Below are positions 5,176 to 41,203 of a DNA stretch of 43,052 bases, piece after piece. The first letter of the stretch is position 1, and every line of letters begins with the position of its first letter. The DNA lies in the NCBI GenBank assembly GCA_027036675.1, contig JALWDW010000017.1:1-43052 (forward strand), read 5' to 3'. The DNA is from Candidatus Dojkabacteria bacterium (GTDB lineage Bacteria > Patescibacteriota > Dojkabacteria > SC72 > JAHDCA01). Under the pieces are notes generated by a model. It ran no database searches and was not told the origin of the DNA. It worked only from the letters and a program-made list of their open reading frames with translations. Both the position numbers and the translations under genes were made by a program.

Positions 5176-5816
5176 TCGAGTTGGACTTTGTAGGTTCACA
5201 TGACCAGGGTAGGGGGTCTTGTTGGGGTACTCTGGACAGTTCTCCCGGCGGAGCATGCAATCCCACCATTAGTACCGGAATACCAGTGTTTCTGGCATTA
5301 TCTATGCTCGGAAACCTGGTTTCTTAACGTCAAGCGATGACTTCTGCCGCATTTCGGCCCGCAAGTGTAAGGATAGAGTGGGGGAGTACACAACTACCCT
5401 ATAGTTCGTACCACGCTATGTGGATAACCTGTAGAGCACGGTAACCTATAGTTTCGCACCTATTTTTACCAACACGGCTCGCAGAAAGCAGTGTCAAGGA
5501 CCAACGCTTAAATAAAAGAACTTTGACCTAAAAGCTAGAAGGAACCCGAGGGTAAGTGGAGCACTTCCGGGGAGTTGCAACGGAGAGTACCCCATTACCC
5601 AAATGTCTCCATAAATTATACAGAACGGTATCGAGTATAATCACCCTTATATGCGATAGGGAATTATGATAAGATATAAAAAGTGGTATTTGACAATCTT
5701 GATACCTTTCGACGTTTTGTCATTGTATCAAGGTTTCGTCGGCACTTGATTAAAATTATAACAATCTCTCAATTAACTAACTCGCCCATCATTTACTGTT
5801 GATTTATATTCCAATC
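5176..5816. other. Gene-free remainder of the large gap before the recombinase
   Basis: I see no supported gene. Visible details are a pair of direct repeats (ACCCTATAGTTCGTACC near 5396 and ACCTATAGTTTCGCACC near 5450), one exact DnaA-box match (TGTGGATAA, 5419-5427), and increasing A+T from about 5610 towards the recombinase start. It is not recognisable as tmRNA, RNase P RNA, SRP RNA or a known riboswitch by eye. Confidence 0.5.
5698..5732. promoter_or_regulatory. Inverted repeat upstream of the recombinase
   Basis: CTTGATAC (5698-5705) and GTATCAAG (5725-5732) are perfect 8-base arms separated by 19 bases. TTTCGACG follows the left arm and a similar TTCGTCG follows the right arm. It lies about 85 bases before the recombinase ATG. 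It may be an operator or a recombinase-binding site; the arm spacing is wider than a standard dif core. Confidence 0.4.
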
Positions 5817-11653: not shown

Positions 11654-11693
11654 TTCAATATATGATGAGTTTAATTATCTTGTACGCTTGTCA

Positions 11694-11702
11694 AATATAC
11701 CA
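11694..11702 (-). promoter_or_regulatory. Possible extended -10 of the 945-aa gene
   Basis: On the minus strand the sequence is TG-G-TATATT, about 40 bases before the ATG at 11653. It lies outside the recognisable limit of element B. Confidence 0.35.
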
Positions 11703-11767
11703 AATACTAAGGGGTGTTTACAAGTGCGCAAATTTGCTTTCGATTGCAATAGGGTATTCGACGTCGG

Positions 11768-12242
11768 GGTTAGGACCCGGTCTTCATACCCACTGATTGG
11801 ATGGAAACGCTGTTGCGACACAGTTAGTGGGCAAGGATTCGACCCGGTCACATACACAAAACAGAGCGTATACGACATATACAAATATCGCGTGACTACA
11901 GTACACACTACACATCAGGTACGGAGAAGACGCTTACTTGGGGGTATTTTCCCAAACCCCGAAAGACAATACATCAACCCGCTACGTGCGCACGTTTAAG
12001 TACATCGTACTACCTATTGCAACTACAAAGTATCGATAAACACCATGGTTACAAGGAACGTGCAGAGCCCCCGGAATGCGCGCTCCAGAGCGACGGGTAT
12101 CCGTAAACGCCTATACGACAACGTAAGTTGGCCGTTAAATTTCGATTAAAATAATATTAACCGCAAGATTTTCTGGTCGGTTATTCCCATGGTGATAAGG
12201 TTCCTTTGTCAAGGCTGGGGTTTAAGCCTGGGGTTCAACCCC
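11768..12242. repeat. Dispersed non-coding element, copy B (inverted relative to A)
   Basis: The reverse complement carries, in the same order as copy A, the GGGG-loop-CCCC hairpin (12230-12242), TTGACAAAGG (12203-12212), the exact 16-mer (12018-12033) and the exact 21-mer (11774-11794). It fills most of the 720-base gap between the 987-aa and 945-aa genes. The frame matching A's 77-codon open frame is interrupted by TAG (11982-11984) and TAA. The remaining gap, 12243-12373, shows no gene. Confidence 0.7.
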
Positions 12243-12373
12243 GACTTGTTGCGATCGGAATTAGAATATAGGGGTTGTGGTACGGAATGTAATGTCGTAC
12301 TGGCTCGCATCCGACTTGGGTATGATTAAAGAAGATATAGGACTCTACGCATCGGCGCGATGCACGTGCGTTG

Positions 12374-15337: not shown

Positions 15338-15357
15338 GATACTGGTATTTCGTGAGT

Positions 15358-16044
15358 TTAAAGGTATTGAAACTGAGGTAATGACATCACCATCTGCATA
15401 GCGTGCTTGTACTCACCGTCTACCATGGCGGATTTGATGATATCATATACGTCCAGAGGCAAAAACAGCGGATCTGTCGCATCTTGTTTGGTATTGCGCC
15501 CATGGGCGATCGCGTGGTATTGATCGATCAGCAGTCTGATATCGTCCTTATAATTCTTGTCCACCAGTATGCGTAGGACTTGCACCAATCCGTCGGGCAA
15601 ATCCGCCACATCTTGGATCATGGCATGCAGGTTGCGGTATTGTGTGATGATATCTTGCATTGCTTGCCGGTATTGCGCGGCAAGGAAACTGTCAAAAGTG
15701 CGTCCTGTTTTTGCTCTGTAAACTTCGTGGATGAGTAAGAATTTCTGTCTTGGTGAGAGCTTGTCGTTTTGTAGCAGTGGAGAAAGCTTATCGTAATCGT
15801 GCTGAGTGAATACTTCAGCTATATCCATATGCAATTTTGCCGTGAGCAGAGTTCGTAAACCTACGGTGATAAGCTCACCAATATTTGCTCGCTCCCCTAC
15901 TACATCCTGCATCTCTTGCAACACTTGTTTGTAGTCGGAGACGAGTTGGATGTTTTGGTCGATATACGCGTCCACCTGTTTATCCATTATGCTGGATATC
16001 TGCGGGTTTTGTATAATTTTCAAGATGTTGTTTTTCAATGCCAT
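15358..16044 (-). CDS. 228-aa helical protein of unknown function
   Basis: A soluble, helical protein I cannot assign. The frame is open to an ATG at 16086, but I start it at 16044 (MALKNNILK). A perfect extended -10 element (16058-16066) lies inside the longer version, and the extension reads like promoter sequence. The protein is rich in Gln, Asp, Leu and Ile, with helices throughout and no signal peptide, membrane segment or catalytic motif. It is the first gene of a likely two-gene operon with the 987-aa protein. A divergent 836-aa helical protein starts 178 bases away on the other strand, so the three may be functionally linked. Confidence 0.72.
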   Translation of the reverse strand: MALKNNILKIIQNPQISSIMDKQVDAYIDQNIQLVSDYKQVLQEMQDVVGERANIGELITVGLRTLLTAKLHMDIAEVFTQHDYDKLSPLLQNDKLSPRQKFLLIHEVYRAKTGRTFDSFLAAQYRQAMQDIITQYRNLHAMIQDVADLPDGLVQVLRILVDKNYKDDIRLLIDQYHAIAHGRNTKQDATDPLFLPLDVYDIIKSAMVDGEYKHAMQMVMSLPQFQYL

Positions 16045-16057
16045 GGGGCTATAGGAC

Positions 16058-16066
16058 ATTATAGCA
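16058..16066 (-). promoter_or_regulatory. Extended -10 promoter of the 228-aa/987-aa operon
   Basis: On the minus strand this is TG-C-TATAAT, identical to the yebC element. It lies 13 bases before the ATG at 16044, giving a leader of about six bases. This decides the start codon of the downstream gene. Confidence 0.65.
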
Positions 16067-16221
16067 TTTTTTGTGGGTTGGGGCAATAGTGATGTGCTAC
16101 CACCCGGTCACCCGCACCATGAGTGATTGACAGGCGTGAAACCATAATGTAGAGTAGTTTTAGGTGATGCAAACAAGTCTATTGTTTCATACTATATTTA
16201 ATATTAACAACCTGATAAGAA

Positions 16222-18732
16222 ATGGGACGAAAATTATTCGAACCAGTCGAACAGGAGCAGTGGACACTGGAGAATATCGCGAATTACGCAGAGAGCTTAT
16301 CGCAACGAATGACAGATGCTCAGGACCCCTCTACAGTAGACAGCGCTTTGCGTGATGTATTAAGTTTGTGGGATCTCACGGATGAGAACTCTCCTGCATT
16401 CAGCTCGTATGCGCACAGCGTCGGTGGATATGACCGTATCTTAGAGGGTGATTCTCAACGAAGAATCTCGGAGGCTATTAATAAAAGTCTGGGTGTATAT
16501 TTTGCTAAGATTGAATATGCAGGAGAAGGTGGTGAAGATGGAGCGATCGACGAACGCAGGCTAGCCGGTATGGTTGACGAGTTGAAGCACCTTCCGGCTC
16601 AAGCGGCACGCTTGGTGCAATATGGCGCGGAACATGATGCCATAGAACCCGAGCTAGTGGACAATTTGCGGGGTGTAATAATGACCAGGGCGGCAAATGA
16701 AATTGCAACATATTTTTCTGTAGATAAGGCATCACAAGCTGGCGATGCAGTTCGCCGTTATGTGAACCTGGATATGATCAATGAAAAAACAATAGGTACG
16801 TTGCGTAGTAGTATTACCGATGTTATTACGAGGAATGTGCGGCGGGAAATGCAACGAATTAACATGTTGGATCCCGACGGCTACAAGAGGACATTGCGAA
16901 ACCTCAGACACTACTTGACGAACGACATCGTCTATGGACCGAATATAGCAAGCGGTTTAAGGATTGTGGACCAGGCTGTCAAAAGGAAAGTAGGTTCGGA
17001 AATACATGCCCGTGGTGTCAGCAAGTTATATTCCATTATGACTCAGGAAGATGCTAATGCGGATACTTTGGCGGTGGCGGTATCGTTTGTTCGTGAGTTT
17101 ACCGATCAAATGGGGAGTATATTGACAGAGGCTCAGGAACGGGAATTATTTGACGATCTTCTCAAAACAACACAATCTGCGATATTCAGACGTATCGAAG
17201 GTGGTGATTATCCGGCGGCACAGGAAATGTTGGATGCGGTCGAAACCCGAATGTACATAAGTGATGAACAAGAGCAATCAATACGTCGGGGACTGCGCAG
17301 GAGAACCGCAAGTTTCGTGCTTTCCCGTATTAAAGAAGGGGATCTTAAACAAGCAGCGGAAGTGTTTTCCAATATGCAGGAAGTCTTGTTTGATGATGAT
17401 ACAAAGGAACTGATAAGTAGTCGTGTAGCGTCTCAGTTAAATGACGACGTAGCTGACTTACTGCGCGCAGGCAAAGTAACCCAAGCGCGGCAGGTAGTGC
17501 TTAACTATATGGTTGCCGGTTGGACAAATATCCAGGAATACAGCCGACAAGATGTATCCAATCAGCAAGTACGCACAGCGGTCGTGCAAATGATTGACAA
17601 GATGCTCGGTGATGGAGATATGAACGAATTAATGCGCATACCGCAAAAAATGCGGGGTGTCATTGAATCCGGAGTGTTGGAGGAAGACGCTGAAAAGATT
17701 GACGAAGAGACAGTAAAGACAATATCAGATGTATTTGGCAGATATATAGGCGAGGCGATTATAAACGGGGGTGAGTCTAGGATGCAGGAATTAGATAGAG
17801 TGGCAAAAAGTTTGGCGGAACTCAATTACCTCGACATGGATGGACTGTCACTCCGTATAAGGTTCAACCTTATCAGCGAACTCAAACGTATGTTCGCAGA
17901 GTCCCATAACGAACTTAGAGATGCAGTAGTAAACCTCCAGCGCACAGTGCCGTCAAGTGAGTTGGAGAAAATGATCATCTTCAGAAGAAATCTAACGGAG
18001 TTTGTTGCGGATCAATTATTGAAAGGACTGCCGACCGCCGATCAATTCGACGGTTTCGCTCCTGGAGATGAACCGACACATGGGACGGCCCGTCTAGATG
18101 AAGTTAACAGAATATTGCACGAGTCAGGATTGATACAATTGTGTGGTCAGGAAAAAGTAAAGGAGAAAGTGGCCACTATGTTATTTAATGAAGTAAAAGA
18201 GCAAAGCGTAGAGAGTGGGCGTGATTTGCGACGTCTGGCGACTGTCGTGCGTAAGCTTAGAGAAGAAGACTTATTGGCCGCCAACCATGCCAGAGATATT
18301 GAGTCGCGTTTCACATGGCGTGCGATCGACACAGTGGTGAATAAGCTAGTGAAGGAAGGTGATGCACATGCTATACGAGCCGCACTAAAGTTTATTGTGG
18401 ATCTATCGGAGTTACAAAATAGTGAACCAGACCCAATGTCACTTGAGGACACTGTAAAGCATATGGCAACTCAAATAGATCGTGGTATTGGGGAGGCAAT
18501 CCTACGAGAGGTGAAAAATTTGATAAGTGCAGGGTTAAATGATACTACGAACTTTGAACAATTGTTAAGGTTACTTGAGAATGCCGACTCGGCGGCAGTC
18601 AACTATGATGGAGACCAAGTATATCAAATGATGCAACAGTATAAAGTTCCGTTGGAGATTGTAGATCTGTATAGAACGAAACGTTTTGAAGCCCATGATC
18701 GTTCTATACGTAGAATGTTTTCTTCAAGATAA
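16222..18732 (+). CDS. 836-aa alpha-solenoid-like repeat protein, unknown function
   Basis: No known family is evident, but most of the protein appears built from diverged helical repeats of about 42-50 residues, perhaps ten to twelve from residue ~120 onward. A recurring pattern is a helix with basic residues, a 'xxGDxxxAxxxL' turn-helix, and a short acidic loop. Examples are RRIEGGDYPAAQEMLDAV, SRIKEGDLKQAAEVFSNM, DLLRAGKVTQARQVVLNY and NKLVKEGDAHAIRAALKF. Such arrays usually form elongated binding scaffolds. There is no signal peptide or membrane segment, so a cytosolic location is likely. It is divergent from the 228/987-aa operon and convergent with the DUF4215 gene. The start ATG at 16222 lacks a Shine-Dalgarno sequence. 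The repeat call is my reading and needs a profile comparison. Confidence 0.75.
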   Translation: MGRKLFEPVEQEQWTLENIANYAESLSQRMTDAQDPSTVDSALRDVLSLWDLTDENSPAFSSYAHSVGGYDRILEGDSQRRISEAINKSLGVYFAKIEYAGEGGEDGAIDERRLAGMVDELKHLPAQAARLVQYGAEHDAIEPELVDNLRGVIMTRAANEIATYFSVDKASQAGDAVRRYVNLDMINEKTIGTLRSSITDVITRNVRREMQRINMLDPDGYKRTLRNLRHYLTNDIVYGPNIASGLRIVDQAVKRKVGSEIHARGVSKLYSIMTQEDANADTLAVAVSFVREFTDQMGSILTEAQERELFDDLLKTTQSAIFRRIEGGDYPAAQEMLDAVETRMYISDEQEQSIRRGLRRRTASFVLSRIKEGDLKQAAEVFSNMQEVLFDDDTKELISSRVASQLNDDVADLLRAGKVTQARQVVLNYMVAGWTNIQEYSRQDVSNQQVRTAVVQMIDKMLGDGDMNELMRIPQKMRGVIESGVLEEDAEKIDEETVKTISDVFGRYIGEAIINGGESRMQELDRVAKSLAELNYLDMDGLSLRIRFNLISELKRMFAESHNELRDAVVNLQRTVPSSELEKMIIFRRNLTEFVADQLLKGLPTADQFDGFAPGDEPTHGTARLDEVNRILHESGLIQLCGQEKVKEKVATMLFNEVKEQSVESGRDLRRLATVVRKLREEDLLAANHARDIESRFTWRAIDTVVNKLVKEGDAHAIRAALKFIVDLSELQNSEPDPMSLEDTVKHMATQIDRGIGEAILREVKNLISAGLNDTTNFEQLLRLLENADSAAVNYDGDQVYQMMQQYKVPLEIVDLYRTKRFEAHDRSIRRMFSSR

Positions 18733-18797: not shown

Positions 18798-20498
18798 TTA
18801 GTGCCGTTTCCCGACGATCATCTTCAGCGACACGGCGTAAGACAAGGTCAGTAATGATACGGCTAGCATTAGTCCACCACCAGCAATACGCAAGACCTCT
18901 CCCAAACCCGTATCGACAGGTGTGTGGGTAGTACCTTTTACTTCTCTGGTTTGGATCGTACACGAAGATGTACAGTATGAGCATGAACCGACGCCGTTTA
19001 TTGTGCAGACCTTACCATTGTTAGCTCCGTCGTCGCAAGCTTCGCTCGTTTGCTTGACTCCGTCCCCACAAGATTCCAATTGACACGTTGAGCTACAACC
19101 ATCGTTGTTCTCGGTGTTACCATCGTCGCAGGCTTCACCAGGTTGCTTGTAGCCATCTCCACATTGGGCAAGCAAGCAAGTGTTGGTACAACTGTCATTG
19201 TTATTCTGATTACCGTCATCGCATTCTTCACCATTTTGTTTTATACCATCTCCGCAAGTGGGGAGTGCGCATGTATTGGTACAGCTGTCGTCATTATCGT
19301 TGTTGCCATCATCACATGCTTCACCAGGTTGTTTGTAACCATCTCCGCATCTGGCAGGTTGACATGAATTTGTACAACTATCATTGTTATTACGATTACC
19401 ATCATCGCATTCTTCACCTAACCTTTTTTGTGTTATATTGTCTCCGCAATATTCCTTGTGACATTGAGAATCACAACCGTCTCCGTTAATTGTGTTACCG
19501 TCATCGCATGCTTCATTGCCTTCTTTCTTACCATCGCCACAGACTGGAGCCGCTTTCTCTTTGGTTTTGATGATACATGTGCCACCGCTTATGTCACAAT
19601 ACTGACAGCTATTGCCTGAAGTGATGGAACAATCATCCGCCGGGTAATTTGGATCTCCTGTTTCACATTGCTCATTGCCTTCTAATTCACCGTTTCCGCA
19701 AACCGGAGCGTTTTCACACTGAACACCTGTATGGCATAAACCTACAGCAATCGGTGTCCATGTATTACCGAAACCCTCACATCCACCATAATTGTCGGTC
19801 AGACCCATTTCACTTTCATCCTTGGGGTCGACAACGTATGTATAAGAGCGGTCGGGATTAGTATCGTATATAGTTAACGAAGATAATGTGATATCTATCT
19901 GATATGAACCACAAGCTTCGGCGTAATTTGTATCTTTACTGTTGTATTGTATGGTATTAGTCAAAGTAATTGTCTTGCCCGGAAGCAAGGAGATGTCAGT
20001 TAGAGGGTTTCGCAATCTCCAATTTTCAGGTGCTTCCCCGTGTTTTGCACCACAAATATAATGATAATTGTATTGTTCATCAGTGTATCCATAAGGCTCG
20101 GGACAATGAAAACCAGCTTGGAGTAGATCCATTTCTATTTTATGATCTGAAACGTTTGTAATTGTATATGTAATGCCGTAGTCAGCAACACTGGTAGAAC
20201 TGTATGGAACATTAGCTTCTGGATCTTTACAGTCTGGATTGCCAATTTCTTGTGCTGTTACTTGTATGATAGCTTCTTTTTCGTCTCCAGAAGAAGGTGT
20301 TTTACATTTTAATGTATTTCCCCTCAAATCTACTCGTGCAACCGCCTGTACTGAATCTGCTTGTCGAGAATTAAAGTCCGAAATCTCTGCAGGAGTCAGA
20401 AATGCTTGCATCACAGAATATGATATTACAGGTAAAACGATAGCTAACAAAGCATATGCTCCTAATTTGAATAAGGTCTTTTTATTTAAGTATTTCAT
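18798..20498 (-). CDS. Cysteine-rich surface protein with DUF4215 repeats
   Basis: I start this 566-residue protein at 20498 (MKYLNKKTLFKLGAYALLAI), where a basic tip and hydrophobic helix look like a signal or anchor; an upstream ATG at 20618 gives an unlikely extension. Residues ~45-260 form a beta-rich region. The C-terminal half carries a run of cysteine-rich repeats of the form CGDGxxxxxEeCDDGNxxNxDxCxxxC, the DUF4215 (Myxococcus cysteine-rich) signature, with about six units. A hydrophobic segment and basic tail (IVGKRH) at the end suggest anchoring with the repeats outside the cell. The repeats probably use disulfides and acidic metal-binding loops. DNA repeats follow the protein repeats (19020-19540). 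GC content is visibly lower than in the ruv or surface-locus genes. Confidence 0.88.
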   Translation of the reverse strand: MKYLNKKTLFKLGAYALLAIVLPVISYSVMQAFLTPAEISDFNSRQADSVQAVARVDLRGNTLKCKTPSSGDEKEAIIQVTAQEIGNPDCKDPEANVPYSSTSVADYGITYTITNVSDHKIEMDLLQAGFHCPEPYGYTDEQYNYHYICGAKHGEAPENWRLRNPLTDISLLPGKTITLTNTIQYNSKDTNYAEACGSYQIDITLSSLTIYDTNPDRSYTYVVDPKDESEMGLTDNYGGCEGFGNTWTPIAVGLCHTGVQCENAPVCGNGELEGNEQCETGDPNYPADDCSITSGNSCQYCDISGGTCIIKTKEKAAPVCGDGKKEGNEACDDGNTINGDGCDSQCHKEYCGDNITQKRLGEECDDGNRNNNDSCTNSCQPARCGDGYKQPGEACDDGNNDNDDSCTNTCALPTCGDGIKQNGEECDDGNQNNNDSCTNTCLLAQCGDGYKQPGEACDDGNTENNDGCSSTCQLESCGDGVKQTSEACDDGANNGKVCTINGVGSCSYCTSSCTIQTREVKGTTHTPVDTGLGEVLRIAGGGLMLAVSLLTLSYAVSLKMIVGKRH

Positions 20499-20540
20499 AT
20501 CAGTAATGTGTAATATTAAATAGGTTACACTTTCCTTAGA

Positions 20541-20546
20541 ATTATA
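20541..20546 (-). promoter_or_regulatory. -10 box of the DUF4215 gene
   Basis: TATAAT on the minus strand, 42 bases before the chosen ATG at 20498, supporting that start over the one at 20618. No clear -35 box is seen. Confidence 0.45.
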
Positions 20547-20676
20547 TATCAAATAATGGTAAAAAGCAAATACTATGAGACAGGTGTAGGGTTGGATGTA
20601 TCTTACATACATGCCCAATCGAAATGTGTTGCTATGATGGGGTTGTTATCACTTCTATTCTATCATTGATACCATG

Positions 20677-29982: not shown

Positions 29983-31269
29983 ATGAAAAAGATTGTATTC
30001 CCATCACTGTTCGTTTCACTATTCGTCGCATTGGTCTTGTCGACAATGCCTGTGGGTGTCGTCATGGCTGCGGAGACGAAGTTGGGTGTCGTAGCCGACA
30101 CATTCATATCTCAAAATCATCCCGATGATACACATGGCAATGACCAGTTCGCCGCTATAAACAATGATCCGTCTGCTTATAACTGTTATCTTGCACGATT
30201 TGAGGATGCGACTTTGCCACCGGAAGTCATATTGGACAAAGCGGAGTTGCAATTTCATGTCAACGTCAATCTCCATGGGCAGGATGCGATACTGCAAATA
30301 GGAGTGAATGACCCAAGCGTATCCGTATATCTGCATGAGGATGATATTTCTTGGGACAATTCACCTGTTCGGTTGACGGACTATGCCTATACCGTATACA
30401 AGCATGTCAATATCGAGGCAGGTGGTGACAGGGTTGTGGATATTACGAAATTATATGAAGCATGGCAGACTGGTACTGTGCACAATAACGGGCTGTACAT
30501 ATGTGTCGCGCCGTCCCAACCTCATTCGTCATTTATCATCAATACCAAGGAAAGCGCCGATCCGGATGTCAAACCAAGCATAATTTTGACCTACCATACG
30601 GCTACTTTGGGCGAACCCCCGCGAGAAGAAGATTCGCCTGCGGTCGAGTTTTCATTCCACTTACTTGACCCCGATGGTGCGACATTGACAACGCCACCGT
30701 ACATTTTCACATGGCAGAGTGCTCACGCACCCGACCCTGATCGCCAACACCTGAAGATTATCGTAAACAAGCGAGGTTCGGGGCCTACAATGACCGAAGT
30801 TTTTTCACACGAGATTCCTGCGAACTGGACACGGTACGAGTCTTCGATCGATTTGGAAGACGGCTCTTACGAATGGTTCATACAAGCATATGACACGGAC
30901 ACGCCCGTTTATGAAACCGAGCACAAGGAATTTACTGTGGATCATAGTACCGCTACCGATACCGAAGCTGAGGGATCGTCCGATAGCAGTCCAGATGTCG
31001 GCGAGCATGCCACCGGCGGCAGCACAAGTGAGAACTCCAGTGGTACCGGGGCGAATCGCGAGCAAGTTGATGAAACCCGCGATGATATCGCCGATACGGA
31101 TCGATCCCCTCTCTTTGTTGGCCTGGCTGTCGGGTTGGGAACTGCGTTTATTGCTGCGGTGGCGGTGATGAGTTACATACTTTTGACAGGGAGAATGCAC
31201 GATCAGGTGAACACGGTACCTAAAACCAAGGCAGTCAAAAAAGTAAGGACGAGAAACGGTAAAAATTGA
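29983..31269 (+). CDS. Membrane-anchored surface protein with a DNRLRE domain
   Basis: A 428-residue exported protein. The N-terminus is a signal peptide (MKKIVFPSLFVSLFVALVLS, cleavage probably after VMA-A). Residues ~33-205 match the DNRLRE beta-sandwich pattern: it opens ADTFISQNHPDDTHGNDQF, and ends with the WQTGTVHNNGLYI and SADPDVKPSIILTYH strands. Relatives occur in carbohydrate-binding and cell-surface proteins. Residues ~215-320 look like a fibronectin/Ig-type domain (FSHEIPANWTRYESS, YEWFIQAYDTD). A Ser/Thr/Glu-rich linker leads to one membrane helix (about 371-396) and a basic tail. The body is therefore outside the cell and tethered by the C-terminus. It opens the plus-strand surface locus and has its own promoter. 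Confidence 0.85.
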   Translation: MKKIVFPSLFVSLFVALVLSTMPVGVVMAAETKLGVVADTFISQNHPDDTHGNDQFAAINNDPSAYNCYLARFEDATLPPEVILDKAELQFHVNVNLHGQDAILQIGVNDPSVSVYLHEDDISWDNSPVRLTDYAYTVYKHVNIEAGGDRVVDITKLYEAWQTGTVHNNGLYICVAPSQPHSSFIINTKESADPDVKPSIILTYHTATLGEPPREEDSPAVEFSFHLLDPDGATLTTPPYIFTWQSAHAPDPDRQHLKIIVNKRGSGPTMTEVFSHEIPANWTRYESSIDLEDGSYEWFIQAYDTDTPVYETEHKEFTVDHSTATDTEAEGSSDSSPDVGEHATGGSTSENSSGTGANREQVDETRDDIADTDRSPLFVGLAVGLGTAFIAAVAVMSYILLTGRMHDQVNTVPKTKAVKKVRTRNGKN

Positions 31270-31945: not shown

Positions 31946-32117
31946 GAAATTTACGTAGACAACACCCAATCGCAAGCGTGCTGAAATAGCTTCCGTAAAT
32001 ACACCTATAACACCTTTATACAACGTATTCCGCCCTCATGCAACATCCCAAAAACTGTTCATTCTGGGAAATAAGTGCTAGGATATGGATAGGCTTAAAC
32101 TATTTACCCTGAAAAAT

Positions 32118-32909
32118 ATGTACCGAGCAAAATCCAAAAAGATACGACCTTCTCGCAACAAACATCGCAAAAGTTCGCCGATGGGCGGTAGCCCCAACAC
32201 GCCGGCACCGACAAGACGCGTGGCACGTGGCAAACCGAGCAAACGCAAGATCCTTATCGTACTGGTTGCGTTATTGGTAGTCGCCCTCGGAGGCGCCTCC
32301 GCACTATCGTATATCAAATGGAGAGACGCGGAGAGAAGATTGGAAAGTTTCAACGACCCAGCCCAATACGAGAAACTGCAAATGGAGCGCGCTCAAGCGA
32401 CTATCGACGCTTTGGGGAAATTGATGATCCTGCCGGATGAAAAACCTACGATAGCAACCATAGTGGACGTGGAGTCCCTGAAAAAACAAAACCCCGAATT
32501 CTACAAAAACGCGCGTAACGACGATAAAATACTGGTATACCCAAACAAAGCGATCATATACCGCGAGTCGGAGAATATAATTGTCAATGTGCTACCCGTG
32601 GTGACCGTACCTCGAAACAATACCGCGCAAGGTCTTCAAGTCGAAGTGATAGATGGTACGGATCGTGGAGATGCATTCAATACGGTCAAGGATCGGATCG
32701 CCAAACTTGCGAACGGGCAAGTGGTTGATGGCGGCAAAGCAGATACGACGTATGATAAGACAGTGGTTTATGACATCTCGGACGGAAAGAAAACCGAGCA
32801 AATAAAGAAGTTGGCAAGCGATCTGGGATACGAGTATTCGGATTCGATCCCGGCCGGCATAGCTTCTCAAGCGGACACTGTGGTGATTTTGGGTAATGAT
32901 ATATTTTAG
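32118..32909 (+). CDS. Membrane-anchored LytR_C-domain protein
   Basis: A single-pass protein of 263 residues from the ATG at 32118. An upstream ATG at 32085 would add 11 residues, but a TG-C-TAGGAT -10-like element at 32076-32084 abuts it and would place the transcription start inside that extension. A very basic cytosolic tail of about 45 residues precedes one membrane helix (ILIVLVALLVVALGGASAL). A coiled region follows (about 75-105), then a middle domain. The C-terminal ~90 residues match LytR_C (GLQVEVIDGTDRGDAF..., ending ADTVVILGNDIF). LytR_C is found at the end of some cell-wall polymer transferases and alone in many CPR proteins; its ligand is unknown. The catalytic LytR-CpsA-Psr domain is absent. 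Confidence 0.82.
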   Translation: MYRAKSKKIRPSRNKHRKSSPMGGSPNTPAPTRRVARGKPSKRKILIVLVALLVVALGGASALSYIKWRDAERRLESFNDPAQYEKLQMERAQATIDALGKLMILPDEKPTIATIVDVESLKKQNPEFYKNARNDDKILVYPNKAIIYRESENIIVNVLPVVTVPRNNTAQGLQVEVIDGTDRGDAFNTVKDRIAKLANGQVVDGGKADTTYDKTVVYDISDGKKTEQIKKLASDLGYEYSDSIPAGIASQADTVVILGNDIF

Positions 32910-32966
32910 CCGGTATCCCCCACCGGTTCGTAAGAGGTTTAAGTTGATGTGAACAATTGGACCGAG

Positions 32967-33728
32967 ATGCGTGGTAACAAGTATATTTTCTCCGGGATGG
33001 CCATATTGGCCCTCTCTGGACTGATCGCTATGTCGGGATTCGGCCATGTGTCGGCGATCGAAAGTTCAAATTACAAGACGGAACCGCACAACGAAGGGAA
33101 TAGTAGTGAGAGGTCAACTTCCACGCATTACCAAGTGGATAGTCAAGTCGGCGATGTGGCGGTGGGTACGTCGGGAAGTGGTGCATATCAACTGGATCAC
33201 GGTTATTTATACCCGGACAGCGCCGTGTCGCTTACATTCATAGTAGCTCCAGAAAAAAGGGTGGCGAACCCGCCCAACGGTGACGCCCCGCCAAACTGGG
33301 ATCTGTCGGATATAAGGCTGCGTATCAATCCTGTGGGAAGCGACAATGTGCTTTTTGAAGATACGGTGGGCCCTACCGATACTGACGGTAGATGGGTTAC
33401 ACCGATCCCTGCGAATATTTCGCCGGGTGTGTACGATATACGTGTCAAAGGTTTATCTCATTTGTCGCTATTGAAGACCAGTGTCAATTTGTCGGCCGGC
33501 AACAATCTTGTGGATATGAGTGATGACGGCAGCGGGGGTATCGTATATATGTTGGCAGGAGACGTGAATTTGACGTTTGGCGACGACAAAGTAAATTCAT
33601 TGGATATAGGTACGACATTGCGCGATCTCAATACATCGACGTACCGCACGGACCTAAATCAAGACGACAAAGTGAATTCACTGGACTTGGGCATGGTGAT
33701 TACCAATTTAAATTTGACGGGTCAATAG
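32967..33728 (+). CDS. Secreted protein with a C-terminal type I dockerin-like domain
   Basis: A 253-residue exported protein from ATG 32967; the frame is open from a GTG at 32949, but the ATG gives a better signal peptide (KYIFSGMAILALSGLIAMSG, cleavage near VSA). The middle (about 60-190) is beta-rich. The last ~58 residues contain two calcium-loop repeats, GDVNLTFGDDKVNSLDIGTTL and DLNQDDKVNSLDLGMVI. The second matches the dockerin loop DxNxDxxVNxxD exactly; the first has a three-residue insertion. Dockerins bind cohesins, and a cohesin-domain protein is encoded three bases downstream. No transmembrane anchor follows, so the protein probably sits on the cell surface through that contact. 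Confidence 0.85.
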   Translation: MRGNKYIFSGMAILALSGLIAMSGFGHVSAIESSNYKTEPHNEGNSSERSTSTHYQVDSQVGDVAVGTSGSGAYQLDHGYLYPDSAVSLTFIVAPEKRVANPPNGDAPPNWDLSDIRLRINPVGSDNVLFEDTVGPTDTDGRWVTPIPANISPGVYDIRVKGLSHLSLLKTSVNLSAGNNLVDMSDDGSGGIVYMLAGDVNLTFGDDKVNSLDIGTTLRDLNTSTYRTDLNQDDKVNSLDLGMVITNLNLTGQ

Positions 33729-33731
33729 GAA

Positions 33732-35924
33732 ATGAAGAGACGAATTATCTCTGTTTTATCATTTACGGCGTTGTTTTTCGGCATGTCGATATTCATGACC
33801 GTATTTGGAGTCGGCGGTAGATCGTCGGTATTGCGTTCGGTGGTACACGCGGCAAGCGGTCAGTATTCTTTTTCCCCCTCCTCTGGCATTTTCTATGTCG
33901 GCCGGCAATTTAATATCCGCTCGAATATCACAACTGACGAGGGCACCACGGCCGCTGATTTCATAGTTGATTATGATGATACGAAATTGCAGATTGTGGA
34001 CGCCGATGCGGGCAATGGAGGGGTTCAAATTTTTACCGGCAATTTGTATCCAAATTACCCGGTAGGCGCAAACAGTGTCAACGGCAACAGGATCATATTG
34101 ACGGGTTTCACATCTAATACAAGTGGCGTATTGCAAGGTGGTGGGACGGGCTGGTTTGGAACGATACGGGCCTTGGTGGTAAATACCGCGCCTGCAGGCA
34201 CAGATATGACCTATGAGTTCACCGGTGTCGGCAATACGACTGATTCAAATATATCCGACATCAATGGGATAGACATGCTGGACGGCATCACCAACGGTAA
34301 TTATATTCTGCTTGAGGATAATACGGACCCTTATTTCAGCGACTGGCAACCCGGGCATGGTGCCACAAATGTCAGTGTGGGCAGTGATGTGTATTTCAGA
34401 GTGAACGACGACGAAAGCGGTGTCGATATTACCTCCGTCACAGCCACCATAGATGGTATCTCGTATCATTACGGCGATCCCGGGTTTAGTTACAGTTGTA
34501 CAAGGAGCAATTATGATGTAGTCCCCTATTGCGATGTTACGATAAATCCGACCCACGATTTCCCTTACGATTATGATGTACATGTCAACCTATACGCGGA
34601 AGATCTTGCGGCCAACGTCGGCACACCGCCCATACCGGATCACAACAGCGCCACGGACAGCTACACATTCCATACTGAGTTTGATGTAAATCCGCCATAC
34701 ACCACGAATAATATTCCGGCCCGTTCGTCCGGTAGTGCAAGTACGGATACCGACATATCTTTTGATCTGAGAGATGACGAGACTGGAGTGGAAATTAGCT
34801 CGGTTTCTATCACGGTAAACGGGGTAGTGTACACGGCCGGTGGCCCCAACGCATTTGCGTATACGGGTAATAGCACCAATTATCATATAGTGATAAATCC
34901 CGTACATGAATTTGAGGAGAACGAGTTGGTGTTTGTACAGATTGACGCGCGTGACCGCGCTACGGCTTGGGGCGCTCCCGCGTACAATTGGTTGCATGAA
35001 AATTACTGGTTTAAGACGCGGGATACGAAGACTCCTTGGGTGGATCGTCGTATTCCGGATGTAGCGGCGCATACCGGCATTGATACCAACGATCCGATCA
35101 CGTTTCATGTCAACGATCTCGGTATAGGAGTTGATATATCGACACTTGAAATCGTCGTTGATGGGACCCGATATACGGTGGGTGACACGACATATACCGG
35201 TGACTCGTCAGACTATCTGATCAATCTGCCCGTTCCGGCCAATGGTTGGCAATACGATCATCCGGTGGGTATCGGGATAAATGTTTGCGATTTTTCACAT
35301 AATTGTATGACGACTGATACGTATGCTTTTGTCAGGCAATCATACACCTGCCCCGTATGTCCGGTATGCGAAGATTGTGAAAAATGTGATACTCCCGTTG
35401 AGGATAAATGTGAAAGTTGTGACGAGCTTGTCGAAAAGAAGTGCACCGGGGCGAAAGATACCCGTTCGGTGGATGGTGCGACAGATTACAAAGTAAGAAA
35501 ACAGATCGCCAACAAGTATGTAACCGAAGTGCGGGTAACGGAATTCAATGACGTGCGTTTTGACGGTTGGCGGAAAATAATTTTTGCGCGGAGGATTAAG
35601 CTGAATGGTACGGCGACTGCGGGGGCGATGTTGCGGTTGAGATTCGATGACGATAAATACTCGTTCTCGGTGCCTGTGGATCAAGATGGCAATTGGTCGA
35701 TTGATCTGAAAAATATGTTTGGACATGGAGATCACAAGATCGTTGCCGGTGTGGTTGTCGATGGGGTGGAAAGCGAAGAAAGCGAATTGGGCTGGTTTCA
35801 TATAGTAAATCTGTGGTGGCTGCTCCTTTTGTTATCTCTCGGTGGGGTTGCTGTCCGTTATATATATAAGAGGTATTTTAAATATAAAGATGAAAAAAAG
35901 AAGAAAAGGACGAAGAAAGCGTAA
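33732..35924 (+). CDS. Membrane-anchored cohesin-domain protein with Ig-like repeats
   Basis: A 730-residue exported protein. Residues 1-41 are a signal peptide. Residues ~43-194 match a cohesin-type beta-sandwich (SFSPSSGIFYVGRQFNI, then FIVDYDDTKLQIVDA, and ILTGFTS). Three Ig-like repeats follow (about 198-315, 318-428 and 432-535), each with a D..(S/T/I)GV(D/E)I segment and a (D/N)G..Y turn. A cysteine-rich linker (540-571) has eight cysteines, most spaced CxxC. Another beta-sandwich (about 600-690, with VDQDGNWSIDL) precedes a membrane helix (693-710) and a lysine-rich cytosolic tail. The layout is that of an envelope scaffold holding a dockerin partner, presumably the preceding gene's product. 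The next gene overlaps its 3' end. Confidence 0.87.
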   Translation: MKRRIISVLSFTALFFGMSIFMTVFGVGGRSSVLRSVVHAASGQYSFSPSSGIFYVGRQFNIRSNITTDEGTTAADFIVDYDDTKLQIVDADAGNGGVQIFTGNLYPNYPVGANSVNGNRIILTGFTSNTSGVLQGGGTGWFGTIRALVVNTAPAGTDMTYEFTGVGNTTDSNISDINGIDMLDGITNGNYILLEDNTDPYFSDWQPGHGATNVSVGSDVYFRVNDDESGVDITSVTATIDGISYHYGDPGFSYSCTRSNYDVVPYCDVTINPTHDFPYDYDVHVNLYAEDLAANVGTPPIPDHNSATDSYTFHTEFDVNPPYTTNNIPARSSGSASTDTDISFDLRDDETGVEISSVSITVNGVVYTAGGPNAFAYTGNSTNYHIVINPVHEFEENELVFVQIDARDRATAWGAPAYNWLHENYWFKTRDTKTPWVDRRIPDVAAHTGIDTNDPITFHVNDLGIGVDISTLEIVVDGTRYTVGDTTYTGDSSDYLINLPVPANGWQYDHPVGIGINVCDFSHNCMTTDTYAFVRQSYTCPVCPVCEDCEKCDTPVEDKCESCDELVEKKCTGAKDTRSVDGATDYKVRKQIANKYVTEVRVTEFNDVRFDGWRKIIFARRIKLNGTATAGAMLRLRFDDDKYSFSVPVDQDGNWSIDLKNMFGHGDHKIVAGVVVDGVESEESELGWFHIVNLWWLLLLLSLGGVAVRYIYKRYFKYKDEKKKKRTKKA

Positions 35925-36597
35925 CGCGCGCATGAAACGTATCGCAATAATTGGGGGCTTTGTTTTGCTTGGACTGATCATCTTGATCACAGGTATTCGT
36001 ATATATGGGCATAGTCCGGACCGACGAATGTTTGATATACATGGCAGTATCAAGAACGTGGCGGATGGCAAGCCGATGGCTGGCATGATCGTACGCGTGA
36101 ACAATCGCGAGGTTGTCACAAATAAGGATGGCTCGTTCGCATTTACCGGTGTGCCAGAAGGTGCGGTATTGACCGTAAGTGGTGCCGGATTGTACGGCGA
36201 TATGGTGTTTACCATTACTGATGACAAGCCGTTGAATATATATGTCGATGTCTCGGCGGAGCAATTTTTGATCAAGTTGAGGGAGCTTTATAAGTACAGG
36301 AAATTTGGTGCGGCATACGATCTGTTGACTTCGGAATATGCGGACAAAATTTCTTTGGAAGATTTTGTGGCTTCTGAAAATCGCTATTTCGACGGTATTT
36401 TGCATGTCGATTCTCCCAATCCGTGCCAGATCGAAAATGTCGTCTTCGAAGATCGCAAATACGATCCTGCCGGTACCAGTATGGACGCAGACATGATTTT
36501 TTATCTGTCCGGTGCATGTGAAGGTGTGCGAAGATATGTACGCAGGGTAATTGTAGTCGGTAATGGCGATACCTATAGTTGGCAATATGCACCGTAG
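35890..36597 (+). CDS. Membrane-anchored protein with a carboxypeptidase-regulatory-like domain
   Basis: I start this 235-residue protein at ATG 35890, overlapping the cohesin gene by 35 bases. ATG 35932 (MKRIAIIGG), just after the previous stop, is an alternative; the GTG at 35842 is unlikely. A strongly basic tip precedes one membrane helix (IAIIGGFVLLGLIILITGI). Outside the membrane, residues ~47-125 match a carboxypeptidase-D regulatory-like beta-sandwich (DIHGSIKNVADGKPMAGMIV, NKDGSFAFTGVPEG). The last ~110 residues resemble an NTF2-like fold (KLRELYKYRKFGAAYDLLTS). No catalytic residues are apparent. The overlap with the cohesin gene implies co-expression and perhaps joint assembly. Confidence 0.8.
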   Translation: MKKRRKGRRKRNARMKRIAIIGGFVLLGLIILITGIRIYGHSPDRRMFDIHGSIKNVADGKPMAGMIVRVNNREVVTNKDGSFAFTGVPEGAVLTVSGAGLYGDMVFTITDDKPLNIYVDVSAEQFLIKLRELYKYRKFGAAYDLLTSEYADKISLEDFVASENRYFDGILHVDSPNPCQIENVVFEDRKYDPAGTSMDADMIFYLSGACEGVRRYVRRVIVVGNGDTYSWQYAP

Positions 36598-36685: not shown

Positions 36686-39600
36686 ATGAGAAAATTACCT
36701 CGCAGATACAATATATACCGAATTCTGAGTGTCGTATCTGCCTTGGCGATCTTTACTTTATTCGCTCCCCTACTCTCCACCGCCAATGCGCAGGTCCCGC
36801 AGTTTATAAATTACCAAGGTAAATTGAAAGATTCTGGTGGGAATCCTCTTACCGGTACGTACGATTTCCGTATGCGAATTTATGATGATCCCACTGCCGG
36901 TACTCTGCTATATGCTGACGAACATGCAGGGATAAATGTGAGACCGGGGGGGATATTCAATGTTGCCATAGGCTCCGGTACAGTGATGACTCCGCCAAAT
37001 CAGCCATTTTCCTCGCTGGAGTTTACCGAACCTTATTACCTCTCCGTTGAAGTCGGTCAAAACGGCGTGTGGGATGGTGAAATGACACCGAGGGTGCCGT
37101 TGGCCACGTATATGTATGCATTCAATTCGCAACAATTGGAAGGGCATAGCGCAGGCAATGGCGCGGACGATGTGTTGGTGCTCGATAGCAATGGGGATAT
37201 AAATTTTGCAGGGAATATCATCACTACCGGAAATATAGAGAGCGGTGCAATCACTGTGGAAGAATCCGAATATTCAGCCTTCGCTGTCTTCGAAGATACA
37301 AGCAATGCCGTCAGTACATCGATACATGTGGGGAACGGCTCGCCCGAGAATATAGTCGTCGCAGGTGCCGGTTCTTTGTACCTGGATGAGGCGGGCAACG
37401 TATTCGTCAAAGAGAGCGGAACCGGGAATACGGGTTGGGTGGAATTGGCTACGATTACGAGCGTGGGCAACATATACAATACGGATGGTACATTGACAGG
37501 CAATCGTGTCGTTGACGCCGGCGGGCATTTGCTTAGGTTTCATAATAATTGGATTGATTACGACATACGTGATGATTCATCGGCTATCATTGCCGACGAC
37601 GGGAATGCAAGGAGTAGGTTTGATATTGAGCCCACATTTTTTCAGCTGTATTCACAAGATGCCGGTAGCTTGGCTCAGAGTTCCATCCAGGGTGACCCGA
37701 CCGGAGAGATAATATTGACATCCAACAGTACTGGAGCGGCAAACGATAGGATGCGAGTTATCGTGAATACTGATCAATTTGACATTGTAACCGATGATAC
37801 GACCTTCAGAGGCGCCACATACGACAAGGACTATTCGGCAAATTTCACGGATCGGTCTCTGGTGGACAAACAATATGTGGATAAGCAGCTGATGTGGGAA
37901 ATTGTCAATGGTGGGGAGAGAATACAACCAAAGGACAATAGCGTGCGGCAGATCTTCGTGGAAGAAAATTCAAACAGTTATACGCAGTTCAAAGTGGTGA
38001 ATAACAACGATACCGGCAACGTGGCCGGGGCCATCATTGAATTAAAGGGTTCCGGAGCCGACTTCACGAACAACATGTACATAGGCAAATATGGAGCGGC
38101 TTTTTGGATCCCTGAATTACAGGACAACGGAGCAGTCTTGACAGACAAAAATTTGGTGATAGGTACGGCTTCCGCTTCCAACGAGATACATTTCGTGGCC
38201 GGGAATTCGTACAGCGACTTACGTCCCGTGGTTGTTGCGGATAACGAAGGGTTTCGATATACATCGGATTTATCGGCGACGTATGTCGATAGGACATTGG
38301 TAGATAAAGGGTATGTGGACAGCTTGGTATCGACGAGTAGCTTCTGGGTTCCTGGCACGGCGGGTACTTATTCAATCCGCAGTACGGGTAATGCCGCTTC
38401 CGGCGGTGATGCGCAGGGAAATTATTCTGTGGCGATGGGCTACAATACTCGCGCTTCGACATATTTCGCAATGGCTGAAGGGACCTCTACCCTCGCCAAT
38501 GGGGAAGGTTCGCACGCAGAGGGGCGCGGTTCGCATGCTTTGGCCAACGCATCGCATTCAGAAGGTCAGCAAACTGTAGCGTCCGGATATAGCTCTCATG
38601 CGGAAGGGAATAATACGCGCGCTACGGGTATTGCTTCCCATGCCGAGGGGCTTCTTACCGTAGCACAAAATGCGTACCAGTATGCCGGCGGAATCTACAA
38701 TGTCGGTACGGCTACGGATACAATACACGAGATTGGTATAGGGACGGGAGCATCAAATAGGATGAATGCATTTGAAGTCTATACTGATGGCAGCATATTG
38801 GCACCAGAGTTCAGTATCGCTGAAATCAATGCGCGGGGGAGCAGTTCATTGACAACCAAAGAGTATGTGGACAATGCGATATCCACAGGTGCCAACAATA
38901 TATATAACAACGACGGTACGGTCGTAACGGACAGGACTGTGACATTTGACGATAAAGTTTTAGACTTTATGGCTGTGGGCGACAATAGCGAGTACAATTT
39001 GGATATGAGTGACACCGCCGGGGCCAATAGCTACTTCAGTATGTTGCCGGATGAGATGGAGTTCAATTCGGCTGCCGCGGGGAACGGTCCTGCGTCAAAT
39101 ATGATCATCGGTTCTACCCGGCTTGGCTTTCATCATGATGACGGGACGAACAATCTTGCCAGTGTGACCGTGAGCGACGACATTATCATCGAGGATGGTA
39201 TTCACAACCGTGGGGCGGTGTATTTGGCCGATTACTCGGCGAATTATACCGATCGTTCACTGGTGGACAAAGGGTATGTGGACGCGGCGATAACAAATGG
39301 GAAACAAACGTTGCAAGGTGTTGTCGATACATCGATTGCCAAAGATGGATACGTCACGGCTGATATGGGCGCCGGGGTTATTGAAGACGATGGTGGGCTT
39401 TTGTTTGTAGAAGCGCACGCAGGCAAAGACTTTGATTATGGTGCGGAAGGCTTCCTGGTATTTTCTCTCGCCGGAGGTATGGGTGATGCAGGGCACGCTT
39501 ATGTCTCTGATTATAGGAATGCCGGCAGTCGCAAAGGGCTGGAGTATTCCGCCGATTATTCCGCAGATTATACCGATCGTTCGCTGGTGGACAAAGGGTA

Positions 39601-41203
39601 TGTGGACAGTCTGAACAAAAAACTTTGGGATGCTGATCATGACACAGGAATTCAAGTAGAAGAAGCTAGTGATGAGGACAAAATCAGATTTGATACTGTG
39701 GGCATTCAGAGAATGGTAATAGATGAAAATGGCCATATAGGTTTGAACACAGAAAACTTCTCACATGACGTTTTGTTTTACGGTAATGTGTCCACGACCG
39801 TCAATGTGTTGCAGTCAAACTCGACGATGGCCGGGATAAATATCGACAGGTTCAGCGATGATGTTGAGCCTGCGCGCTTTGCGATGGATAAAGCTAGGGG
39901 TACAGAGTCTGCACCCGCAATCATTCAGTCTGGAGATGAGATTATAGAGATGTCTGGTGCCGCTTATGATGGCTCTCAATACATATCGGCAGGTGGTTTT
40001 ATAGTGAAAACTGACGGTACACCTGCTGCGAACAGTATACCGACAAGGTTAACTTTCTTAACCACTCGGGCAGGTGCTCTGGGTTCCGATGAGAAAATGG
40101 TTTTGACATCTGAAGGAGAATTGGGTATCGGTAATCTGGATCCTGATAGTGCTTTGCATGTGACAAGCGTATCCGGTCAAGTTGGCGAGGCAATCTTGAC
40201 ACTGGAAAACAGCACGGGTGATACGCAAGTTTTTAACGTGGACAATAATCCAGAAAATTATGTAACAGGCTCTGTTGGAGATATTGCAATAGACAACTTC
40301 CATGGAGATATATATATTAAACACTCTGGGGACGCCACCGATACGGGTTGGTTGCAATTGGCGGCGGGTGGCGGGTCGTTGTCGCCATGGACGCGTAGTG
40401 GGACGGATTTATCTCCTACCACGCCAGGCGACGATGTTGTATTAAATACCGGTGAGACATTGAGCATCGTTGATCTTGCGCAGGGGTCTATACCGTTTAT
40501 AGGTGCCGGCGGGATGGTTATGCAAGATAATTCCAACTTATACTGGGACGATACCAATAATAGGCTGGGAATCGGGACAGATAGTCCTGGTCATCAGCTG
40601 ACACTGGCCGGGGATGGTACATCTAACGCGGATGCGTCTTTGGAAATGGCGGTATACGCCGACTCAGGGCAGCCCGCCGGACTTTACCTCCATAGGGCTC
40701 GGGGTTCTGACTCCTCCCCAACAGCTATCGTTGATACCTTACCGATTGGGGGAATCATGGCCGGAGGATACGACGGTACAGCTATGGTGGAGTATTCAGC
40801 CGGTATACAGATGGATGCAACGGAGGATTGGTCCTCCACCGCCCATGGTACGAGGATATTTTTCTCTACAACTGAAAATGGAACGACAGGTATGGTTAAC
40901 CGTATGGTGATAGATGATAATGGTAATATAGGTATCGGTACGACATCACCTGATTACGAATTGCAAGTTGACGGTACAATCGCCCCTGAGACTACTGATA
41001 CGTTGGGACTTGGTACAAGTGCCCTGAGGTGGGATCTGTACGCGGACGAGATCGACGTAAACAGCTTGACAGTCAATAGCTTGCTAAACGCACCGCGAAG
41101 CAATACGGCGCCGGCATCTCCTGTCGCGGGCACGATCTATTTCAACACCGCGGACAACAAGTTGAAGGCGTACGACGGTACGACCTGGCACGATTTGTAT
41201 TAG
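36686..41203 (+). CDS. Giant secreted fibre/adhesin with YadA-head-like and 'VDKGYVD' repeats
   Basis: A 1505-residue secreted protein. A signal peptide (about 1-36, ending STANA-Q) is followed by the QFINYQGKLKDSGGNPLTG module (about 37-155, ending PRVPLATYMYAFNSQQLEG), often found at the start of long fibre-like proteins in CPR and other bacteria. Four spaced copies of a (D)RSLVDKGYVD-type motif occur near residues 388, 535, 855 and 964, with a related TTKEYVD near 722; similar motifs occur in phage-tail-fibre-like trimers. Residues ~570-670 are YadA-head-like repeats (YSSHAEGNNTRATG, ASHAEGL). The C-terminus ends in PVAGTIYFNTADNKLKAYDG, with no membrane anchor or YadA barrel. Trimeric assembly is inferred from these motifs. 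Attachment to the cell must be by another route, possibly the neighbouring proteins. Confidence 0.9.
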   Translation: MRKLPRRYNIYRILSVVSALAIFTLFAPLLSTANAQVPQFINYQGKLKDSGGNPLTGTYDFRMRIYDDPTAGTLLYADEHAGINVRPGGIFNVAIGSGTVMTPPNQPFSSLEFTEPYYLSVEVGQNGVWDGEMTPRVPLATYMYAFNSQQLEGHSAGNGADDVLVLDSNGDINFAGNIITTGNIESGAITVEESEYSAFAVFEDTSNAVSTSIHVGNGSPENIVVAGAGSLYLDEAGNVFVKESGTGNTGWVELATITSVGNIYNTDGTLTGNRVVDAGGHLLRFHNNWIDYDIRDDSSAIIADDGNARSRFDIEPTFFQLYSQDAGSLAQSSIQGDPTGEIILTSNSTGAANDRMRVIVNTDQFDIVTDDTTFRGATYDKDYSANFTDRSLVDKQYVDKQLMWEIVNGGERIQPKDNSVRQIFVEENSNSYTQFKVVNNNDTGNVAGAIIELKGSGADFTNNMYIGKYGAAFWIPELQDNGAVLTDKNLVIGTASASNEIHFVAGNSYSDLRPVVVADNEGFRYTSDLSATYVDRTLVDKGYVDSLVSTSSFWVPGTAGTYSIRSTGNAASGGDAQGNYSVAMGYNTRASTYFAMAEGTSTLANGEGSHAEGRGSHALANASHSEGQQTVASGYSSHAEGNNTRATGIASHAEGLLTVAQNAYQYAGGIYNVGTATDTIHEIGIGTGASNRMNAFEVYTDGSILAPEFSIAEINARGSSSLTTKEYVDNAISTGANNIYNNDGTVVTDRTVTFDDKVLDFMAVGDNSEYNLDMSDTAGANSYFSMLPDEMEFNSAAAGNGPASNMIIGSTRLGFHHDDGTNNLASVTVSDDIIIEDGIHNRGAVYLADYSANYTDRSLVDKGYVDAAITNGKQTLQGVVDTSIAKDGYVTADMGAGVIEDDGGLLFVEAHAGKDFDYGAEGFLVFSLAGGMGDAGHAYVSDYRNAGSRKGLEYSADYSADYTDRSLVDKGYVDSLNKKLWDADHDTGIQVEEASDEDKIRFDTVGIQRMVIDENGHIGLNTENFSHDVLFYGNVSTTVNVLQSNSTMAGINIDRFSDDVEPARFAMDKARGTESAPAIIQSGDEIIEMSGAAYDGSQYISAGGFIVKTDGTPAANSIPTRLTFLTTRAGALGSDEKMVLTSEGELGIGNLDPDSALHVTSVSGQVGEAILTLENSTGDTQVFNVDNNPENYVTGSVGDIAIDNFHGDIYIKHSGDATDTGWLQLAAGGGSLSPWTRSGTDLSPTTPGDDVVLNTGETLSIVDLAQGSIPFIGAGGMVMQDNSNLYWDDTNNRLGIGTDSPGHQLTLAGDGTSNADASLEMAVYADSGQPAGLYLHRARGSDSSPTAIVDTLPIGGIMAGGYDGTAMVEYSAGIQMDATEDWSSTAHGTRIFFSTTENGTTGMVNRMVIDDNGNIGIGTTSPDYELQVDGTIAPETTDTLGLGTSALRWDLYADEIDVNSLTVNSLLNAPRSNTAPASPVAGTIYFNTADNKLKAYDGTTWHDLY

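Follow-up and report, generated by a model that had tools for sequence, protein, structure and literature searches.

A dockerin gene and a cohesin gene lie side by side

The window (the whole 43,052-nt stretch that we analysed, contig JALWDW010000017.1 of a Candidatus Dojkabacteria bacterium) carries two codirectional genes whose products contain, respectively, a dockerin and a cohesin domain (Table 1). The dockerin ORF runs on the + strand from an ATG at 32967 to 33728, with an alternative GTG start at 32949, and its stop codon is separated from the start of the cohesin ORF (33732-35924) by three nucleotides (gaa); the two ORFs share one reading frame. This arrangement, two such genes three bases apart, had been proposed in an initial annotation made from the sequence, whose coordinates were correct.

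Table 1. Features of the dockerin-cohesin locus and of its flanking genes.
Feature	Position	Strand	Basis
Membrane protein, LytR_C-like C-terminus	32085..32909	+	Pfam PF13399 E=0.0053, below cut-off
Dockerin-protein gene: signal peptide, N-terminal segment, X-like module, dockerin	32967..33728	+	sequence, Pfam, family profile
Signal peptide MRGNKYIFSGMAILALSGLIAMSGFGHVSA, cleavage likely after VSA (HVSA/IES)	32967..33056	+	sequence; hydropathy and AXA scan
N-terminal segment resembling the N-terminus of CPR_pilus_PamT	32997..33248	+	NCBIfam NF058579, below cut-off
X-like beta module preceding the dockerin; limits approximate	33213..33551	+	family profile; strands in predicted models
Dockerin type I-like domain, two repeats, NSLD in both	33555..33713	+	PF00404 24.2 bits
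Calcium loop 1, DVNLTFGDDKVNSLD, 3 residues longer than canonical	33561..33605	+	sequence
Calcium loop 2, DLNQDDKVNSLD, canonical ligand positions	33651..33686	+	sequence
Cohesin-protein gene: signal peptide, cohesin, three Ig-like repeats, Cys-rich stretch, Ig-like domain, C-terminal membrane anchor	33732..35924	+	sequence, Pfam, hydropathy
Cohesin domain	33894..34268	+	PF00963 27.8 bits (genome search); fold matches
Three Ig-like (Big_5-type) repeats, stalk	34317..35339	+	Big_5 E=0.0023; repeat matches 34680-34961, 35019-35339
C-terminal membrane anchor, then basic tail	35787..35843	+	hydropathy, residues 686-704
Membrane protein with CarboxypepD_reg-like domain	35890..36597	+	PF13620 E=3.2e-7, just below cut-off
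Large secreted fibre-like protein, MAT-type N-domain and YadA-head repeats	36686..41203	+	NF053851, PF05658

The gene upstream of the dockerin gene, encoding the LytR_C-like protein, is codirectional with it and separated by 39 nt from the alternative GTG start; its homologues lie near the pair in four other loci (L054, L055, L056 and L068). On the other side, the gene for the CarboxypepD_reg-like membrane protein overlaps the end of the cohesin gene by 35 nt, and its product has counterparts directly after the pair in L054 and L055 (BLASTP 3e-4 and 2e-7, respectively). The large gene that follows was compared with two models: its product matches the MAT fibre model NF053851 at E=1.5e-11 and 44.4 bits, not reaching the curated cut-off of 60, and the YadA-head repeats of PF05658 at E=1.8e-4, likewise below cut-off; by eye, it has no visible C-terminal membrane segment. 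No glycoside hydrolase family was found among the window proteins scanned, in agreement with the initial annotation.

Elsewhere in the window there are an exported protein with several DUF4215/cysteine-rich acidic repeats (18798-20618, - strand), a surface protein with a DNRLRE/CBM96-like domain and a C-terminal membrane segment (29983-31269, + strand), and a tyrosine recombinase (Phage_integrase; 5799-7253, + strand) whose low-complexity inserts seem atypical of XerC/D proteins. Several large proteins encoded at 8816-18732 (945, 987 and 836 aa) have no Pfam match at E<=1e-4.

The dockerin protein combines an X-like module with two F-hand repeats

The dockerin domain comprises two F-hand repeats with calcium ligands, as in type I dockerins (PF00404). 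Pfam Dockerin_1 matched it at E=4.5e-4 and 20.8 bits in the scan of the window, just under the cut-off of 22.9, and above this cut-off in the genome search that the initial annotation had called for. The loop DLNQDDKVNSLD, which that annotation took as a perfect fit to the calcium-binding consensus, corresponds to loop 2 and does present every ligand position of the D-x-N-x-D-x-x-x-N-x-x-D dockerin loop. Our analysis adds the first repeat, DVNLTFGDDKVNSLD, whose loop contains an insertion, so that only loop 2 is canonical. Loop 1 is lengthened in 21 of 23 members of the dockerin family, and the NSLD recognition positions are retained in most members.

The X-like module lies directly before the dockerin, as expected for type II X-dockerins, and carries the PEKR...GxSHL signature of the dockerin-protein family. 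When a profile from 21 dockerin proteins was compared with the PDB, it retrieved 2b59_B at E=1.3e-8, in an alignment spanning both the X module and the dockerin; positions 89-203 of profile A2 match the X-dockerins 2b59_B, 3kcp, 5g5d, 4wi0, 5k39 and 4u3s. X-dockerin chains also appeared among the Foldseek fold matches of both the window model and the model of a relative. As for the remainder of the protein, its identification as the CPR pilus protein PamT was discarded, because NF058579 scores only about 32.4 bits over residues 17-100, against a cut-off of 240, and the likeness is confined to the N-terminal segment.

Fold comparison identifies the cohesin

According to the initial annotation, the second gene starts with a cohesin-like sandwich and ends in a membrane anchor, and both statements hold. 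In the window scan, Pfam Cohesin (PF00963) scored 24.7 bits against a cut-off of 24.1, and the C-terminus contains a hydrophobic segment with a basic tail. Across the family, Pfam detects Cohesin in only four of 20 members at E<=0.001, a cohesin family profile retrieved no PDB chain at E<=0.01, and single-sequence PDB searches with the proteins of the pair were weak. It is the comparison of predicted folds that settles the identity of the domain as a cohesin. Every one of the 50 PDB matches that Foldseek listed for the model of the window protein was a cohesin chain or a chain of a cohesin/X-dockerin structure, with a TM to target of up to 0.73; with the relative's model it reached 0.79, and cohesins occupied the first ranks, some integrin and other beta proteins appearing lower. 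A different beta-sandwich family, which the initial annotation had named as a possible refutation, was thus looked for by fold comparison, and the outcome favours a cohesin, nearly all top matches being cohesins. These matches mix types I, II and III with non-cellulosomal cohesins.

Most cohesin proteins of the family have an export signal of the A-x-A type; that of the window protein was left unmarked by a simple scan and is read by eye as VHA/A. Their membrane segments are C-terminal or internal. An LPXTG-type sortase motif before the anchor is absent from the window cohesin and present in a few relatives, and a sortase-family gene is found near four of the pair loci.

The gene pair is conserved in the class and in the phylum

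Conservation of the pair, also suggested as a check in the initial annotation, was evaluated by searching the two proteins separately in 86 genomes of the class (Dojkabacteria). In 21 of these genomes, that of the window included, we found 23 loci at which a dockerin gene directly precedes a codirectional cohesin gene. Every dockerin protein of the class that was found beyond its N-terminal segment is adjoined by a cohesin gene. Besides the window, this concerns 22 loci from 20 further genomes: 21 of them were counted together with the window, and in the remaining one, L075, a contig end cuts the cohesin gene. The dockerin gene always comes first, with a spacing of -65 to +57 nt.

In a sample of 380 genomes from the phylum, the cohesin model matched in 118 and the X-dockerin model in 95, although not all of the cohesin-model matches are cohesins, because that model includes one Ig-like domain. 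Of 49 strong cohesin-domain matches, 33 are preceded by a dockerin at a distance of up to 1 kb and three have one downstream, in no case on the opposite strand. Beyond the class, it is often a longer protein that terminates in the dockerin. The best named relatives in a collection scan with an 8-row cohesin alignment belong to Candidatus Dojkabacteria/WS6, which bears out the CPR origin deduced beforehand from the sequence. One fully annotated pair set is flanked by housekeeping genes.

A probable calcium-dependent clasp on the cell surface

The gene pair recurs across the phylum, and its probable role is accordingly to fasten a secreted protein to the cell surface. The initial annotation had likewise read the locus as a surface docking system unrelated to cellulosomes, and this is supported as the best reading, with the domains verified by sequence and by fold and the pair conserved in both class and phylum. 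Considering both domains, the signal and anchor segments read from the sequence, and the conserved gene order, we find it quite probable that each of the two genes supplies one half of a calcium-dependent, non-cellulosomal cohesin-dockerin clasp on the surface of this Dojkabacterium. The cohesin protein would be exported and kept in the membrane by its C-terminal segment, with the stalk of Ig-like repeats holding the cohesin domain outward. In the lineage of the window, the small dockerin protein would be exported and released, and its X-dockerin end would bind the cohesin in a calcium-dependent manner; whatever its N-terminal part holds would thereby be fixed to the cell surface.

The initial annotation had named a co-fold lacking an interface as its other possible refutation. 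The pair was folded with AlphaFold2 as one chain, reading the intervening stop as a residue since both genes are in one frame. With the signal peptide in the linker and an unpaired alignment, which make these runs a weak test, the window pair gave a pLDDT of 71.9 and a pTM of 0.47, and the pair of a relative 81.4 and 0.49; the domains were good to moderate in both models, and their relative placement came without a confident interface. For this reason, the binding of dockerin and cohesin is one that we infer.

The clasp might, as a refinement, anchor the fibre encoded two genes downstream, with either the N-terminal part of the dockerin protein or the CarboxypepD_reg protein holding its MAT-like N-domain, so that the whole would work as a host-recognition adhesin. 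The order dockerin, cohesin, CarboxypepD protein and fibre occurs in the window and in L054, and that of dockerin, cohesin and fibre in L056, and L055 shares the dockerin, cohesin and CarboxypepD genes and has, besides, a large gene of weak similarity. The window fibre joins a MAT-type N-domain to the apparent lack, by eye, of a membrane segment of its own at the C-terminus, and the N-domain of Bdellovibrio MAT fibres is presumed to bind a surface element (PMC10769870). However, most other pairs of the class have no fibre gene beside them, the MAT-like matches are all under the family cut-off and the fibre bears neither a dockerin nor a cohesin; what points to this role is gene position, in a few genomes. 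We consider this refinement rather unlikely, and keep the fibre-like protein as a candidate cargo or partner.

Another reading takes into account that both proteins appear membrane-anchored in many relatives, so that the clasp could join the membranes of sister cells or stiffen a complex within one membrane. About half of the dockerin proteins of the family have an N-terminal hydrophobic segment without an obvious signal-peptidase site in a simple hydropathy and motif scan, and in many relatives such proteins may be membrane-bound themselves, facing cohesin proteins that are anchored towards the C-terminus. Against this, the dockerin protein of the window looks cleaved and released, and the assignment of these segments comes from hydropathy and a simple motif; we therefore deem a membrane-joining function unlikely.

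Other dockerins and cohesins in the genome

The genome (881 kb, 83% complete) was searched with HMMs for both domains. It contains two dockerins in all, the second of which terminates a 924-aa protein on contig C23 that looks exported, and further cohesins on a 496-aa membrane protein on C13 and, below the Pfam cut-off, on a 267-aa cohesin-like membrane protein on C7 (L102:2540-3343, - strand); the window pair thus need not be exclusive. A weak cohesin match on C5 was taken as chance, as the 1068-aa protein in which it falls looks, on visual inspection, like a DNRLRE-type domain plus an M23-like peptidase. The same contig encodes a protein that reads by eye as RuBisCO-like (L008:10675-12261, + strand). 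On C23, the dockerin protein is the second of two adjacent paralogues of 858 and 924 aa (L006:2497-7877), which by eye resemble alpha/alpha-toroid lyases.

These additional domains raise the alternative that the cohesin binds, also or mainly, enzyme-borne dockerins encoded elsewhere, as part of a cellulosome-like complex. Nevertheless, Pfam found no enzyme family in either C23 paralogue, and none in either of the two dockerin proteins, so that no dockerin-bearing glycoside hydrolase was detected in this 83% complete genome; likewise, its cohesin matches are on separate proteins, one each, with no multi-cohesin scaffoldin. The C23 dockerin also departs from NSLD at the recognition positions in both repeats. 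With neither scaffoldin nor enzyme families found, a cellulosome was rejected, as the initial annotation had anticipated, and a cellulosome-like complex is very improbable.

It is equally hard to believe that the two folds were kept for other roles, e.g. as plain adhesin domains, and do not bind each other: the divergence of the sequences from cellulosomal cohesins and the cohesin-like proteins of about 240 aa that occur once per genome in many genomes of the order, without dockerin matches there, would fit this, but in the class the two genes occur together almost without exception and in a constant order, and most members keep the NSLD positions, which argues otherwise.

Comparison with known cohesin-dockerin systems

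Cohesin-dockerin clasps are chiefly familiar from bacteria that digest cellulose. Clostridial type II X-dockerins bind surface-anchoring cohesins, and 2b59 and 5k39 are type II X-dockerin:cohesin complexes. As in the complexes of Clostridium thermocellum/Acetivibrio (2b59, 5k39, 5g5d and 4u3s), the surface clasp of Dojkabacteria would pair an X module followed by a dockerin with the single cohesin of an anchoring protein. It differs from them in that no scaffoldin or enzymes were found, the anchor has no SLH domain, the dockerin protein of the window is small and its loop 1 is lengthened. Additionally, both repeats bear NSLD in their helices, a trait of symmetric type I dockerins, and the predicted cohesin fold is no closer to type II cohesins than to type I and non-cellulosomal ones.

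Cohesins and dockerins outside cellulosomes are known in archaea and in other bacteria (PMC9012536, PMC8542988, PMC10066038), and specific binding has been reported for those of archaea (PMC9012536). Cohesins and dockerins likewise exist without a cellulosome in Archaeoglobus fulgidus (2xdh) and ANME archaea (PMC9012536), and 2xdh is among the closest folds to the window cohesin model (TM 0.73 to target). What distinguishes the present pair from the archaeal proteins is that it forms a fixed two-gene unit recurring across a bacterial phylum, that it includes an X module and that its cohesin is anchored in the membrane. Within Patescibacteria, the epibiont Southlakia epibionticum also has an envelope dockerin protein, SEML1_0315, which is essential and for which its authors speculate on glycan binding (PMC10633639). 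The Bdellovibrio MAT fibres have an N-domain similar, below the family cut-off, to that of the fibre gene downstream of the pair, and the accessible part of their description mentions neither cohesin nor dockerin (PMC10769870). Our search of the open-licence literature yielded no description of a conserved cohesin-dockerin gene pair from Patescibacteria. In all, the kind of system is already known, and this form of it is set apart as new by its minimal X-dockerin protein, by the constant pairing of the two genes and by how widely the pair occurs.

It is doubtful that a dedicated X-dockerin/cohesin clasp is the means by which Patescibacteria generally attach host-recognition structures to their surface, here a MAT-like trimeric fibre. 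Nonetheless, the clasp bears on how reduced, presumably host-dependent and presumed epibiotic bacteria display proteins on their surface, and, as a two-gene unit that extends across the phylum and has solved structural precedents, it is directly testable by binding assays. It is also a candidate means of holding fibre-like adhesins on such cells.
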